Assembly (NCBI RefSeq): GCF_030063185.1 | Contig: NZ_JASISP010000023.1 | Coordinates: 1-64,000, forward strand | Direction of reading: 5' to 3' | Length of the DNA stretch: 64,000 nt | From: Arthrobacter sp. H35-D1 | Lineage (GTDB): Bacteria; Actinomycetota; Actinomycetes; Actinomycetales; Micrococcaceae | In this document: in pieces, positions 25,925 through 46,675 of the stretch | How positions within the stretch are numbered: position 1 is the stretch's first letter | How the letters are laid out: each line of letters begins with the position of its first letter | Program-made: the position numbers and the translations under genes | Notes under the pieces: model-generated | The model's database searches: none | Told to the model about the DNA's origin: nothing | The model's input: the letters and a program-made list of their open reading frames with translations, nothing else

Positions 25925-26524
25925 TTAGACCTTCGCTGGCAGCGTGGTGGGTTTGATGACGGGGCGGGTAGCCTCGAACGCGGTGATGTCTGGTTCGTTG
26001 CGCAGGGTGAGGCCGATGTCGTCCAGGCCTTCCAGGAGGCGCCAGCGTGTGTAGTCGTCGATGTGGAACGGGACCACCAATGATTCGGCGGTGACCAGTT
26101 TGGTTTCCAGGTCCACGGTGACTTCGGTCCCCGGAGCGTTTTCCAGGATCTTCCAGATCAACTCGATGTCGTCCTGGGCGAGCTCGGCGGCGATGAGGCC
26201 CTGCTTGCCGGAGTTGCCGCGGAAGATGTCGGCAAAGCGCGAGGACAGCACGGCCTTGAATCCGTAATCCTTCAACGCCCAGACAGCGTGTTCCCGCGAG
26301 GAGCCCGTGGCAAAGTCGGCGCCTGCGACCAGCACTGAACCCCGGTTGAAGGGCTCCTGGTTCAGGATGAACTCCGGGTTCTTCCGCCAGCTGGAGAAGA
26401 GCGCGTCTTCAAAGCCGGTACGGGTGATCCGCTTCAGGTACACGGCAGGGATGATCTGGTCGGTATCGACATTGCTTTGGCGCAGCGGGACACCAATGCC
26501 GGTGTGGGTGGAGAACTTTTCCAT
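25925..26524 (-). CDS. leuD: 3-isopropylmalate dehydratase small subunit
   Basis: A 199-residue swivelling domain of isopropylmalate isomerase. It has [20 protein letters not shown] and [21 protein letters not shown], which positions the substrate. With LeuC it isomerises 2- to 3-isopropylmalate in leucine synthesis. ATG26524 follows the leuC stop by 12 bp, so the two form an operon. Confidence 0.96.
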
Positions 26525-26536
26525 GCTGTGAGCTCC

Positions 26537-28075
26537 TTACGCTACGAAACTGGTCGCGGAACGGGTGCCCGCTGGTTCAAGGTCCGAGGGTGAACTCAGG
26601 GTCCCACGGACCGCAGTGGCAGCAGCCACCACCGGAGAGACCAGGTGAGTACGCCCACCCTTGCCCTGCCGGCCCTCAAAGTTGCGGTTGGAAGTCGAAG
26701 CGCACCGCTCCCCCGGCTCCAACTGATCCGGGTTCATGCCCAAACACATCGAGCAACCGGCAAAACGCCATTCGGCACCAAAGTCCAAGAACACCTGGTC
26801 CAGGCCTTCCGCTTCAGCCTCCAAGCGGACCCGGGCGGAACCGGGCACCACGAGCATGCGAATATTCGGGTCTTTCTCCCTGCCCCGGATAATATCCGCA
26901 GCTGCGCGCAGGTCCTCCACGCGGGAGTTCGTGCACGAACCCAGGAACACCGTGTCAACACGGATGTCCTTCATCGGGGTCCCGGCTTCCAAGTCCATGT
27001 AGGCCAGGGCACGCTCGGCCGCAGCCTTGGCGTTTTCATCGCCAAAGTCCTCCGGGAACGGCACCGAGCCACTGAGCGAAACACCCTGGCCGGGGTTGGT
27101 CCCCCACGTCACGAACGGTTCCAGCGTGTTGGCGTCAAGGAACACCTCGGTGTCGAACTCGGCATCGTCCTCGGTTCTCAGCGACGTCCAATACTGAACC
27201 GCCTCATCCCACTGGGCGCCCTCGGGAGCGTGGGGCCGACCCTTCAGGTAAGCGAAGGTGGTCTCATCCGGTGCGATCATTCCTGCCCGGGCACCGGCTT
27301 CAATGGACATGTTGCAAATGGTCATGCGCGCATCCATCGACAGTGCACGGATCGCAGAGCCACGGTATTCCAGGACGTAGCCCTGCCCGCCGCCGGTACC
27401 GATCTTGGCAATGATCGCCAAGATGATGTCCTTGGAACTCACCCCCGGACGCAGCGTTCCTTCAACGTTGATCGCCATCGTCCTAAAAGGCTTCAGCGGC
27501 AACGTCTGGGTGGCCATGACATGCTCCACCTCGGACGTGCCAATACCGAAAGCCAACGCACCTACGGCACCATGGGTTGACGTGTGCGAGTCCCCGCAGA
27601 CCACCGTCATGCCCGGCTGCGTCAAGCCCAACTGCGGGCCCACCACATGCACAATGCCCTGCTCGGCGTCGCCGAGGGAGTGCAGGCGCACACCAAACTC
27701 GGCACAGTTGTTGCGCAACGTCATGATCTGGGTCCGGCTTGTCAAATCCGCGATCGGCTTGTCAATGGCCAACGTCGGAGTGTTGTGATCCTCCGTGGCA
27801 ATCGTCAAATCCGGACGACGCAGCGGCCGCCCAGCCAAACGCAAACCCTCAAAAGCCTGCGGAGAGGTGACTTCGTGGATCAAGTGAAGGTCAATGTACA
27901 AAAGATCAGGCTGGGCAGCATCGCCCTCGCCCTCGCCCAGGCGAACAACATGGTCCCGCCAAACTTTTTCGGCAAGTGTCTTTGCTGCCCGGCGTGGGGC
28001 GATTTTGGCTACTTGCGCTGCTGTTTCTTCCACTGCTGCATCGTCCACTGTGTGGGGCGTGGTTGGCTCGCTCAC
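26537..28075 (-). CDS. leuC: 3-isopropylmalate dehydratase large subunit
   Basis: A 512-residue aconitase-family subunit. Cysteine ligands for the [4Fe-4S] cluster are seen in FLGSCTNSR and [33 protein letters not shown] is the active-site block. GTG28075 is preferred because AGGGAG lies 6 nt upstream; ATG28090 is in frame. The N-terminus carries about 35 extra residues before the usual KTLAEKVW. It is divergent from ndgR, with an operator-like palindrome in between. Confidence 0.96.
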
Positions 28076-28219
28076 AGCAGCTCCCTTCACTTGGTGAATC
28101 CGTTACTGACGGATGCCGCATTCGGATAGAATTTGACAGTGGTCCGTCGGCGGCTTCGATGATTGTAGGCTCCCACTCTTCCAGCCCCATCTGGAGGGAA
28201 GCCAATTCTTCGATTTGCA

Positions 28220-28234
28220 TCTCACATAATGAGA
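28220..28234. promoter_or_regulatory. Probable NdgR/LtbR operator between leuC and ndgR
   Basis: The palindrome TCTCA-CATAA-TGAGA lies 16 bp before the ndgR start. The same TCTCACA-N3-TGAGA pattern occurs before leuB at 46661-46675. It also resembles the LtbR operator reported for Corynebacterium leu genes, as I remember it. CATAAT inside it could act as a -10 for ndgR, allowing autoregulation. Confidence 0.6.
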
Positions 28235-28249
28235 CGGCAATATCATTAC

Positions 28250-28969
28250 ATGGACAATTCTAGCGGCGTTGGCGTCATTGACAAAGCGGCCCTAGTGCTT
28301 GATGCACTCGAGGCCGGTCCCACCACTTTGGCGCAACTTGTTGCTGCCACCGGACTGGCCCGTCCCACCGTGCACAGGCTGGCACTTGCCTTGGTACATC
28401 ATAGACTCGTCAGCCGCGACATGCAGGGCCGGTTCGTGCTGGGCGCCCGGCTCGTGGAGCTGGCCTCCGCCGCCGGCGAGGACAGGCTCATTGCGGCCGC
28501 CGGCCCAGTGCTGCTCCAATTGCGCGACTCCACCGGCGAGAGCGCCCAGATCTTCCGCCGCCAAGGCGATTCCCGCGTGTGCGTGGCTTCGGCCGAACGC
28601 CCCATCGGCCTGCGCGACACCATCCCGGTCGGCACCCAGCTGACCATGAAGGCCGGCTCGGCCGCACAAGTACTGCTGGCGTGGGAGGACCACGAACGAC
28701 TGCTCGAGGGATTGCACAGCGCCCGCTTCACTCCAACCGTGCTGGCCGGTGTCCGACGTCGTGGGTGGGGACAGTCGCTGGGCGAACGGGAACCCGGGGT
28801 CGCCTCGGTCTCGGCACCGGTGCGCGGACCCTCTGGACGCGTGATCGCCGCCGTCTCCATCTCCGGTCCCATCGAGCGCCTGACCCGCCAGCCCGGCCGT
28901 CTGCACGCCGAAATCGTGTGCAACGCCTCGCGCATCCTGACCGAAGCCCTGCGCAAAAGCGCTACCTGA
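28250..28969 (+). CDS. ndgR: IclR-family regulator of leucine biosynthesis (NdgR/LtbR type)
   Basis: A 239-residue IclR protein. The N-terminal winged helix-turn-helix lies at about 10-65 (TTLAQLVAATGLARPTVHRL) and the IclR effector domain follows. The start MDNSSGVGVIDKA matches, from memory, the very conserved N-terminus of Streptomyces NdgR, so ATG28250 is used rather than 28229. Orthologues (LtbR, NdgR, AreB) sit divergently to leuCD and control leucine genes. The leader is short, since the candidate -10 lies about 20 bp before ATG. Confidence 0.92.
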   Translation: MDNSSGVGVIDKAALVLDALEAGPTTLAQLVAATGLARPTVHRLALALVHHRLVSRDMQGRFVLGARLVELASAAGEDRLIAAAGPVLLQLRDSTGESAQIFRRQGDSRVCVASAERPIGLRDTIPVGTQLTMKAGSAAQVLLAWEDHERLLEGLHSARFTPTVLAGVRRRGWGQSLGEREPGVASVSAPVRGPSGRVIAAVSISGPIERLTRQPGRLHAEIVCNASRILTEALRKSAT

Positions 28970-44316: not shown

Positions 44317-45429
44317 TTAGGCCAGGCGAGTCAGCCAGCCGTGCAGGTCCTCCACCGTTCCGGTCTGGATCCCCAGCAGCTGCTCGCGGATGGCCGCGGT
44401 GACGGGACCCATCCCGTCGCCGGGCGAGTCGATGACGCCGTCGGCCATCTTCAGCTCTCCAATGGGCGTGATGACGGCCGCGGTGCCGCACGCGAAGGCC
44501 TCGGTGATATCCCCGGCGGCCACGCCGTCGCGCCATTCATCGATGGTGATCTTGCGTTCTTGAACCTTCAGTCCGCGGTCGGCGGCAAGCTGCATGACCG
44601 AGGAACGGGTGATTCCGTGCAGGATGTGGCCGTTGAGCGCAGGGGTGACGAGGCTGCCGTCCTTGAATACGAAGAAGATGTTCATCCCGCCAAGCTCTTC
44701 GATGGCGTTGTCGTTGTGCGGGTCCAGGAACAAGACCTGCTTGCAGCCCTGGGCCTCGGCCTCGAGCTGGGCGGCCAGCGAGGCAGCGTAGTTGCCGCCG
44801 CACTTGGCCTCCCCCGTGCCGCCTTCGCCGGCGCGGGCAAAGGTGGTGGTGAGCCAGATCGACACGGGCTTCAGCTCGCCGCCAAAGTAATTTCCGGCCG
44901 GTGAAGCAATCACGCGGTAGGACACCTCGCGAGCGGGCCGCACCCCCAGGAACGCCTCCGTGGCAATCATGAACGGGCGCAGGTACAGGGCTTCGCCGTC
45001 GCCGGACGGAACCCAATCCTTGTCCAACGCCACCAGCTGGCGCAGCGATTCCAAGAAAGTCTCCGGGGGCAGTTCAGGCAACGCGAGCCTGCGGGCCGAC
45101 GTATTCAGGCGGGCGGCGTTGGCCTCGGCACGGAACGTCCAAATGGAGCCGTCGGCGTGGCGGTAGGCCTTCATGCCCTCAAAGATCTCCTGGCCGTAAT
45201 GCAGCACGGCGGAGGCCGGATCCATGGCGATGGGTCCGTAGGGCTCAATGCGCGCGTTCGACCATCCACCCTTGCCCTGCGCATCAACCTTGAAATCCAC
45301 CACGGCGGTGTGGTCGGTGAAGTAGTCGCCGAAGCCGGGGTTAGCCAAAATGGCGTCGCGCTCGGCGCTGCTCTTGGGGTTCTCGTTGCGCTGCTGCGAA
45401 AAGCTCAGCTCATCGGCGATCTGGGTCAT
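44317..45429 (-). CDS. ilvE: Branched-chain amino acid aminotransferase
   Basis: A 370-residue class IV PLP aminotransferase. It has YGQEIFEGMKAYRHADGSIW, the PLP-Lys region in EAKCGGNYAASLAAQLEAE, and EAFACGTAAVITPIGE. ATG45429 is chosen because GGAGGAAG lies directly upstream. It catalyses the last step of leucine, isoleucine and valine synthesis; leuB lies just upstream in the same direction, 137 bp away. Confidence 0.95.
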   Translation of the reverse strand: MTQIADELSFSQQRNENPKSSAERDAILANPGFGDYFTDHTAVVDFKVDAQGKGGWSNARIEPYGPIAMDPASAVLHYGQEIFEGMKAYRHADGSIWTFRAEANAARLNTSARRLALPELPPETFLESLRQLVALDKDWVPSGDGEALYLRPFMIATEAFLGVRPAREVSYRVIASPAGNYFGGELKPVSIWLTTTFARAGEGGTGEAKCGGNYAASLAAQLEAEAQGCKQVLFLDPHNDNAIEELGGMNIFFVFKDGSLVTPALNGHILHGITRSSVMQLAADRGLKVQERKITIDEWRDGVAAGDITEAFACGTAAVITPIGELKMADGVIDSPGDGMGPVTAAIREQLLGIQTGTVEDLHGWLTRLA

Positions 45430-45455
45430 GCTTCCTCCACACGGTAGGGCCCTGA

Positions 45456-45494
45456 TGAGTGGGCGTTTTCGCGCCTTGGGCCGACCCCCACTCA
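45456..45494 (-). promoter_or_regulatory. Leader stem-loop upstream of ilvE
   Basis: TGAGTGGG and CCCACTCA enclose a smaller GGCG/CGCC stem 27 bp before the ilvE start. This could be a leader hairpin or a terminator for leuB read-through. No leader peptide is apparent. Confidence 0.25.
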
Positions 45495-45566
45495 CTGTTC
45501 AATACTGCCAAGCCTACTCCCCCAGCTGCCGCCCCAGCAGCAGTCGCCCAGCAGCGGACGACGGCG

Positions 45567-46619
45567 TTACAGGGCTGCTGCGATGGCGTCGCCGACAGCG
45601 CTGGTGGCCCTGGGGGACGACGCGTCGCGGGTGGCGATGTCGGCAGCCACGGCGGCCTGGACCTTGGCGGCGGCTTCCGGGTAGCCCACATGGTCCAGCA
45701 GCAGCGCAGCTGACAGGATGGCCGCCGTCGGATCCGCCTTTTGCTGGCCGGCAATGTCCGGAGCCGAGCCGTGCACCGGCTCAAACATGGACGGCGCCGT
45801 GCGGTCCATGTTGATGTTTCCCGACGCGGCCAGGCCGATGCCGCCGGTGACGGCTGCGGCGAGGTCGGTGATGATGTCCCCGAAAAGGTTGTCGGTGACG
45901 ATGACGTCGAAGCGCGCCGGGTCGGTGACGAGGAAGATCATGGCGGCGTCCACGTGCAGGTAGTCCACGGAGACGTCGGGGAATTCCGGGGCGATTGCTT
46001 CGACAGTGCGCTTCCACAAGTGGCCTGCGTACACCAGCACATTGTGCTTGTGCACGTAGGTGAGCTTCTTGCGGGGGCGTTCATTGGCGCGGCGGAATCC
46101 GTCGCGCACCAGCCGCTCCACACCAAAGGCGGTGTTGACGGAGACTTCGGTGGCCACCTCGTGCGGGGTGCCCTTGCGCAGCACTCCACCGTTGCCCACA
46201 TAGGGGCCTTCGGTGCCTTCTCGGACCACCACGAAATCGATCTGGCCGGGGTTCGCCAGCGGCGAGGCCACGCCGTCGTACAGGAAAGAAGGGCGCAAGT
46301 TGACGTAGTGATCCAGGGCGAAGCGCAGCTTGAGCAGCATTTCACGTTCGATCAGCCCGGAGGGAATGCGCGTGTCTCCGGGTGCGGCACCCACGGCACC
46401 GAAGAGGATGGCGTCGTGGTTGCGCAGTGCCTCAATGGTGGAATCGGGCAGCGTTTCACCGCTGGCCAACCAGTGCTCGGCGCCGAGCGCATAGTCCGTC
46501 AGCTTCAGCTCGACGCCCTCGGAGGCACTGACTTTCCGCAGCACCTTGACTGCTTCAGCGGTGACTTCGGGGCCTATGCCGTCTCCGGCGATTACTGCAA
46601 TGTCCATGGATGCGCTCAT
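45567..46619 (-). CDS. leuB: 3-isopropylmalate dehydrogenase
   Basis: A 350-residue NAD-dependent decarboxylating dehydrogenase. It has [13 protein letters not shown] at the N-terminus, the Arg-rich substrate region [22 protein letters not shown] and the metal-binding [11 protein letters not shown]. It completes the leucine pathway begun by LeuCD. ATG46619 is used; ATG46607 is also possible. A probable NdgR/LtbR operator lies about 40 bp upstream. Confidence 0.96.
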
Positions 46620-46660
46620 GGTGTCAGCTTAACGAAACCATCCACATGATGATCAAACGA

Positions 46661-46675
46661 TCTCACAGTTTGAGA
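46661..46675. promoter_or_regulatory. Probable NdgR/LtbR operator upstream of leuB
   Basis: The palindrome TCTCA-CAGTT-TGAGA has the same arms and spacing as the site between leuC and ndgR (28220-28234). It lies in the 75-bp gap between phr and leuB, 42 bp before the leuB start. Confidence 0.6.

Follow-up and report, generated by a model that had tools for sequence, protein, structure and literature searches.

A putative tandem NdgR/LtbR operator upstream of leuB in Arthrobacter and its counterpart at ndgR

Genes of the two leucine loci

The window, i.e., the whole 64,000-nucleotide stretch of Arthrobacter sp. H35-D1 DNA that was analysed, carries leucine genes at two loci. In one of them leuB, encoding 3-isopropylmalate dehydrogenase (45567–46619, minus strand; NF002898, 580 bits with a cut-off of 393), is followed 71 bp downstream by ilvE, encoding a branched-chain aminotransferase (44317–45495, minus strand; NF009897 and TIGR01123 over their cut-offs), which is possibly co-transcribed with it. 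Domain and family searches indicated a photolyase-type gene upstream of leuB. In the other locus ndgR, a putative ltbR orthologue (28250–28969, plus strand), is divergent from and adjacent to leuCD, with leuC (26537–28075, minus strand; TIGR00170 and NF004016 over their cut-offs) and leuD (25925–26524, minus strand; TIGR00171 and NF002458 over their cut-offs) on its left. The start of leuC was read as the GTG at 28075, preceded by AAGGGAG; the open reading frame list has 28090. A search for RNA leaders gave two tRNAs as the only Rfam matches in the window.

The ndgR product, an IclR-type regulator of 239 amino acids, contains the IclR helix-turn-helix and effector domains (PF09339, 44.9 bits, cut-off 22; PF01614, 81.6 bits, cut-off 24), and none of the NCBIfam equivalogs reached its cut-off for this protein. 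Solved structures are all distant from it, the best match being 2o0y (E 1e-17). Orthologues were found in all of the 38 relatives searched. In a sample of 108 genomes of the class, from which several genomes of genera already sampled were left out, the regulator is present in 98 (at least 51% identity, E <= 1e-55) and LeuB in 107 (E <= 1e-90). The presumed recognition helix contains seven residues, R38, P39, T40, H42, R43, L44, and A45, that do not vary among the 31 genera with enough sequence.

The palindrome before leuB and its copies in the genome

The palindrome TCTCACAGTTTGAGA, of the form TCTCA-N5-TGAGA, is located at 46661–46675, letter for letter as in the preliminary description of this DNA. 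It lies close before leuB, as stated there, at a distance of 41 bases from the ATG at 46619 (minus strand) and not 42. The accompanying statement that the exact pattern occurs at only two places in the window, 28220–28234 and 46661–46675, was borne out, and these 15-bp palindromes lie between ndgR and leuC and upstream of leuB, respectively. From the composition of the window 0.027 exact copies would be expected in 64 kb, and with one mismatch allowed the window contains five matches versus 0.92 in shuffled sequences. Chance is an unlikely reason for the window to have two exact copies that both stand at leucine-related promoters. The genome-wide count of the exact palindrome is not significant: the 4,464,106 bases of the genome hold three copies (the reversed pattern, none), and 1.9 are expected. 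Because of this small excess the palindrome by itself proves little, and its count alone was rejected as proof of an operator. We consider the conservation at leuB described below to be stronger evidence than any of these counts.

The third exact copy in the genome, on contig C12, is accounted for by a dispersed sequence of which the genome has five copies, and it lies beside a transposase-like frame. The five aligned copies of this sequence (G000 C12:58139, C17:6745, C27:708, C27:6400, and C46:2359) share the form GTCTCACAT-N2-T-N-AGAC, after which comes a stretch that is conserved; the transposase-like frame adjoins one of them. A genome search allowing one mismatch gave 49 forward matches, including the three exact ones, and 21 matches for the reversed control. 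No further leucine gene was seen by eye at 33 of these sites (one exact and 32 of the 46 with one mismatch), where few genes are named. A different palindrome, TCTCACTCGATGAGA or its complement, was found in at least seven genomes of the genus with a single occurrence in each, e.g., G007, G012, G013, G015, G017, G020, and G023.

Paired sites at leuB and ndgR

When 23 genomes of the genus are aligned, the palindrome (site 1 of the putative leuB operator, reading TCTCAAACTGTGAGA on the minus strand) appears as the upstream one of two sites. Site 2 (46640–46654, minus strand; GATCATCATGTGGAT) is centred 21 bp downstream of it, which gives the tandem pattern. The YCR-N5-YGR core of site 1 is found at the same place in 22 of the 23 genomes and its exact TCTCA/TGAGA arms in 12, and site 2 has the form [CT]CATCATGTGGAT in all 23. 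Their spacing of 21 bp does not vary, and none of the other offsets between 12 and 59 bp gives a core in more than two of the 23 genomes; the sequence farther upstream differs among the genomes. The better conserved site is site 2, and the palindrome noticed originally is the less conserved one. Sites, spacing, and conservation can be read directly from the aligned letters. That the palindrome is a product of chance would be compatible with its genome-wide count, but the position and the spacing are conserved within the genus and beyond, which leaves this explanation with a negligible probability. In three of the 23 genomes the left arm of site 1 is of the GTCC or ATCC type with its place unchanged, and therefore one protein may accept both arm types, as this variation suggests. 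Of the 125 leuB loci compared within and beyond the genus, 2 were dropped for want of an anchor. A record labelled Sporosarcina beigongshangi REN13 (L368) also carries the Arthrobacter leuB tandem, and its label looks wrong.

A presumed leuB promoter (46626–46656, minus strand) was read by eye, with TTGATC at 46651–46656, TAAGCT at 46626–46631, and a spacer of 19 bp; a consensus promoter scan at leuB found no promoter and did not recover these hexamers. The leuB mRNA is possibly leaderless.

The copy at 28220 had been placed at the ndgR-leuCD locus. It does lie between the two divergent genes, but its distance is 15 bp to the start of ndgR and 144 bp to leuC, and because of these distances it is to be regarded first of all as the putative operator of ndgR itself. 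The most likely start of ndgR is at 28250, and not at the ATG at 28229 inside the palindrome, because the conserved N-terminus of the relatives and the spacing begin there. Site 1 of this operator (28220–28234, plus strand; TCTCACATAATGAGA) accordingly ends 15 bp before the start codon, and site 2 (28241–28255, plus strand; TATCATTACATGGAC), with its centre 21 bp downstream, includes the ATG and the second codon. No tandem partner on the upstream side was seen by eye. The preliminary description, with one operator per promoter, was correct as to site 1; the pairing, present at both leuB and ndgR, and with it the second sites, had been missed.

Upstream regions of ndgR were anchored for 121 of the 126 loci fetched, and the five without an anchor were dropped. 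In 119 of the 121 genomes a 15-mer with up to three mismatches to the TCTCA/TGAGA arms precedes ndgR; its end lies exactly 15 bp before the start codon in 113 genomes, which belong to 62 genera and 40 families. Of the eight genomes failing this count G023 fits by eye if the start is taken 26 codons upstream of the anchor, and it was left uncounted. Of these 113 genomes, 104 have TTG in the 8 bp preceding the operator and 97 have [AG]TATC at a common place downstream of it. A second YCR-N5-YGR core exactly 21 bp downstream of site 1 was found in 101 of the 113 genomes (56 of the 62 genera) and is absent in 12. This second site commonly reads TATCR-N5-TGGAC, its right arm consisting of the start codon followed by GAC. 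As codon 2, GAC occurs in 96 cases and GAT in one, and the other Asp codons of the gene are GAC in 390 cases and GAT in 74, all of these being raw counts across related genomes.

A presumed ndgR promoter (28215–28243, plus strand), read by eye and not recovered by the consensus scan, consists of TTGCAT at 28215–28220 and CAATAT at 28238–28243, separated by 17 bp, and the ndgR mRNA is possibly leaderless. It is about evenly balanced, in our estimation, whether the ndgR auto-operator is a tandem with its second half formed by the start and second codons of a leaderless mRNA. A single stretch of 36 bp would then serve as promoter spacer, -10, start codon, and N-terminus. If so, the site, the start codon, and residue 2 would be fixed jointly across most of the class (113 of the 121 genomes, 62 genera, 40 families), the tandem geometry would explain the rigid placement of the ndgR start codon, and at leuB the 21-bp geometry of the auto-operator would have been put to use a second time.

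The spacing was also examined outside the genus with a symmetrical matrix built from 61 ndgR operators, one per genus, with the genus of the window excluded; this matrix never saw site 2. It was applied to the leuB upstream regions of 67 other genera, each represented by one genome. Twenty of these genera had their best pair at a spacing of 21 bp, where 2.5 were expected from shuffles (binomial 2.9e-13), seven had it at 22 bp (2.6 expected), and five each had it at 20 and at 17 bp (about 2.5 expected for either). In the controls 21 bp was reached in three cases with reversed sequences and in at most nine with 100 column-permuted matrices. In 47 of the 67 genera the best pair has a spacing other than 21 bp, and its score exceeds the 95% level of shuffles in only 23. 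Within the genus of the window the ndgR-derived matrix put the best pair at 21 bp in six of the 23 genomes and at 38 bp in 11, the latter because the outer letters of site 2 differ and the -10/start region scores by resemblance.

Two other explanations bear on these results. NdgR might bind only TCTCA-N5-TGAGA, the second blocks being look-alike promoter or coding sequence; they do overlap presumed promoter elements and the start codon, which are conserved for other reasons, and leuB site 2 of the genus scores poorly with the ndgR-derived matrix. We nevertheless hold this to be unlikely, given the 21-bp peak in 20 of the 67 other genera obtained with a matrix blind to site 2, the better conservation of leuB site 2 than of site 1 in the genus, and the resemblance of leuB site 2 to the leuB motif of Streptomyces coelicolor, GTCCGCCATGCGGAC (PMC4340878). 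Alternatively, the leuB sites might be read by another regulator, e.g., another IclR-type protein, with NdgR limited to itself and leuCD. The genome does encode five further IclR relatives, but these are distant, the nearest being 31% identical to NdgR; moreover, the leuB sites match the ndgR-operator matrix in many genera, and NdgR itself binds at leuB in S. coelicolor (PMC4340878). This explanation appears very improbable. A tandem site for NdgR remains the preferred reading of the leuB region.

Genome-wide, the tandem pattern has 13 matches, among them those at ndgR and leuB, and its reversed control three. Eight of the 13 lie inside longer open frames, and those at C2:56231 and C4:23588 are, as judged by eye, at gene starts. 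The match at C33:30970 lies upstream of an aspartokinase gene, and no open frame of at least 130 amino acids runs over it. In 22 of the 23 genomes of the genus (loci L391-L413) the aspartokinase gene is preceded by an NdgR-like palindrome (GTCCGTCATGTGGAC, GACCANCATGTGGAC or TATCANNATGTGGA[CT]), 146–212 bp before lysC (G000:C33:30970-31001 in the genome of the window). In four of the 23, the genome of the window included, it has a second core 21 bp upstream. The lysC gene may be regarded as a further candidate for control by NdgR or a related regulator. For ilvD, of the type nearer leuB, 20 upstream regions (19 of them from the genus) were compared; YCA-N5-TGR is present in seven within 170 bp of the match start, at no common place.

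Proposed regulation and comparison with known systems

The palindrome before leuB is probably the upstream member of a tandem operator for NdgR/LtbR, whose gene lies 18 kb away; two dimers would bind there and repress leuB. NdgR as the binder, binding by a pair of dimers, repression, the effector, and the promoter positions are what we infer from sequence comparison. The two dimers would sit on one face of the DNA, on 15-bp YCR-N5-YGR sites whose centres are separated by 21 bp, i.e., two helical turns. In the case of leuB, site 2 would overlap the presumed -35 and the spacer, with site 1 just upstream; given this placement over the presumed promoter, NdgR in place there would repress leuB together with the downstream ilvE, presumably when the product or an intermediate of the pathway signals plenty. 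At ndgR, where the pair would lie over the spacer and the -10 of the promoter as well as over the start codon, the result would be autorepression.

NdgR bound at its own operator would also be positioned some 70 bp from the divergent leuC promoter, on its upstream side. The presumed -10 of leuC, TACAAT (28162–28167, minus strand), was read by eye and not recovered by the consensus scan; the block CTGGNACAGT-N-CATACAA is conserved in the genus, and the operator centre would be about 70 bp upstream of the presumed leuC start point. Such a distance would be suitable for activation. Since NdgR of S. coelicolor has been described as activating leuCD (PMC10331944), the sign of the regulation is uncertain. 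The search for a site at the leuC promoter proper turned up a YCA-N5-TGR close to the Shine-Dalgarno sequence in some of the 23 genomes and nothing else. The region upstream of leuC (28075–28219, minus strand) contains a conserved block like CTGGNACAGTGG, and a near-palindrome TCAN5TGAAGGGAG is found at the leuC Shine-Dalgarno sequence in many of the 23 genomes. The regulon of the ndgR product proposed originally for both loci finds good support in the comparison within and across genera and in the published binding in S. coelicolor; control of leuCD by the 28220 copy, however, we only infer.

The NdgR/LtbR leucine regulon would hereby be extended to Arthrobacter with putative operators defined at base level, and two sites at 21 bp offer a concrete geometry that is testable base pair by base pair. 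The LtbR protein of Corynebacterium glutamicum, reportedly a repressor of leucine and tryptophan genes, as a paper title names it, is likewise an IclR-type regulator of leucine genes. Our literature search revealed no paper uniting Arthrobacter, leuB, IclR, and leucine biosynthesis.

Members of the IclR family bind as dimers or dimer pairs, and tandem sites 18–22 nt apart, interpreted as the binding of two dimers to the same face of the DNA, are reported for 94 orthologous groups (Suvorova and Gelfand 2021, PMC8222616). With centres 21 nt apart at leuB and 21 nt at ndgR, the pairs described here fall within this range. Of the 15 positions of the published NdgR/LtbR motif, KTYCRSMWYSYGRRM (PMC8222616), 12 are matched by each of leuB sites 1 and 2 and ndgR site 1, and 11 by ndgR site 2. 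The accessible part of that study does not mention a tandem site containing a start codon. No priority over published work is claimed for the tandem layout of NdgR sites.

The closest known system is the NdgR regulon of S. coelicolor, as given in the accessible part of PMC4340878. In vivo binding of NdgR is documented there at two places, one preceding the unit of leuB and ilvE and one in the ndgR-leuC intergenic region; these loci, and the type of sequence (a 15-bp imperfect palindrome), correspond to those described here. The S. coelicolor consensus has GTCCAC...GGAC arms, whereas ndgR site 1 and leuB site 1 have TCTCA/TGAGA arms here; the motif at about 6.05 Mb, taken to be that of ndgR-leuC, is GTCCAGAACGCCGAC. 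The regulon is also wider, including ilvB, ilvD, metF, and cys genes, of which one ilvD type was compared here. That part of the account describes no tandem. The two-site geometry seen here suggests that the published single-site motif may describe only half of the operator. The tandems at leuB and ndgR open no new kind of regulation; the link between leuB and ndgR is already established in another genus, through S. coelicolor, and what is seen in Arthrobacter is, as far as can be judged from the letters, a regulon of the ordinary sort whose operator geometry is unusual in its clarity and is conserved widely.
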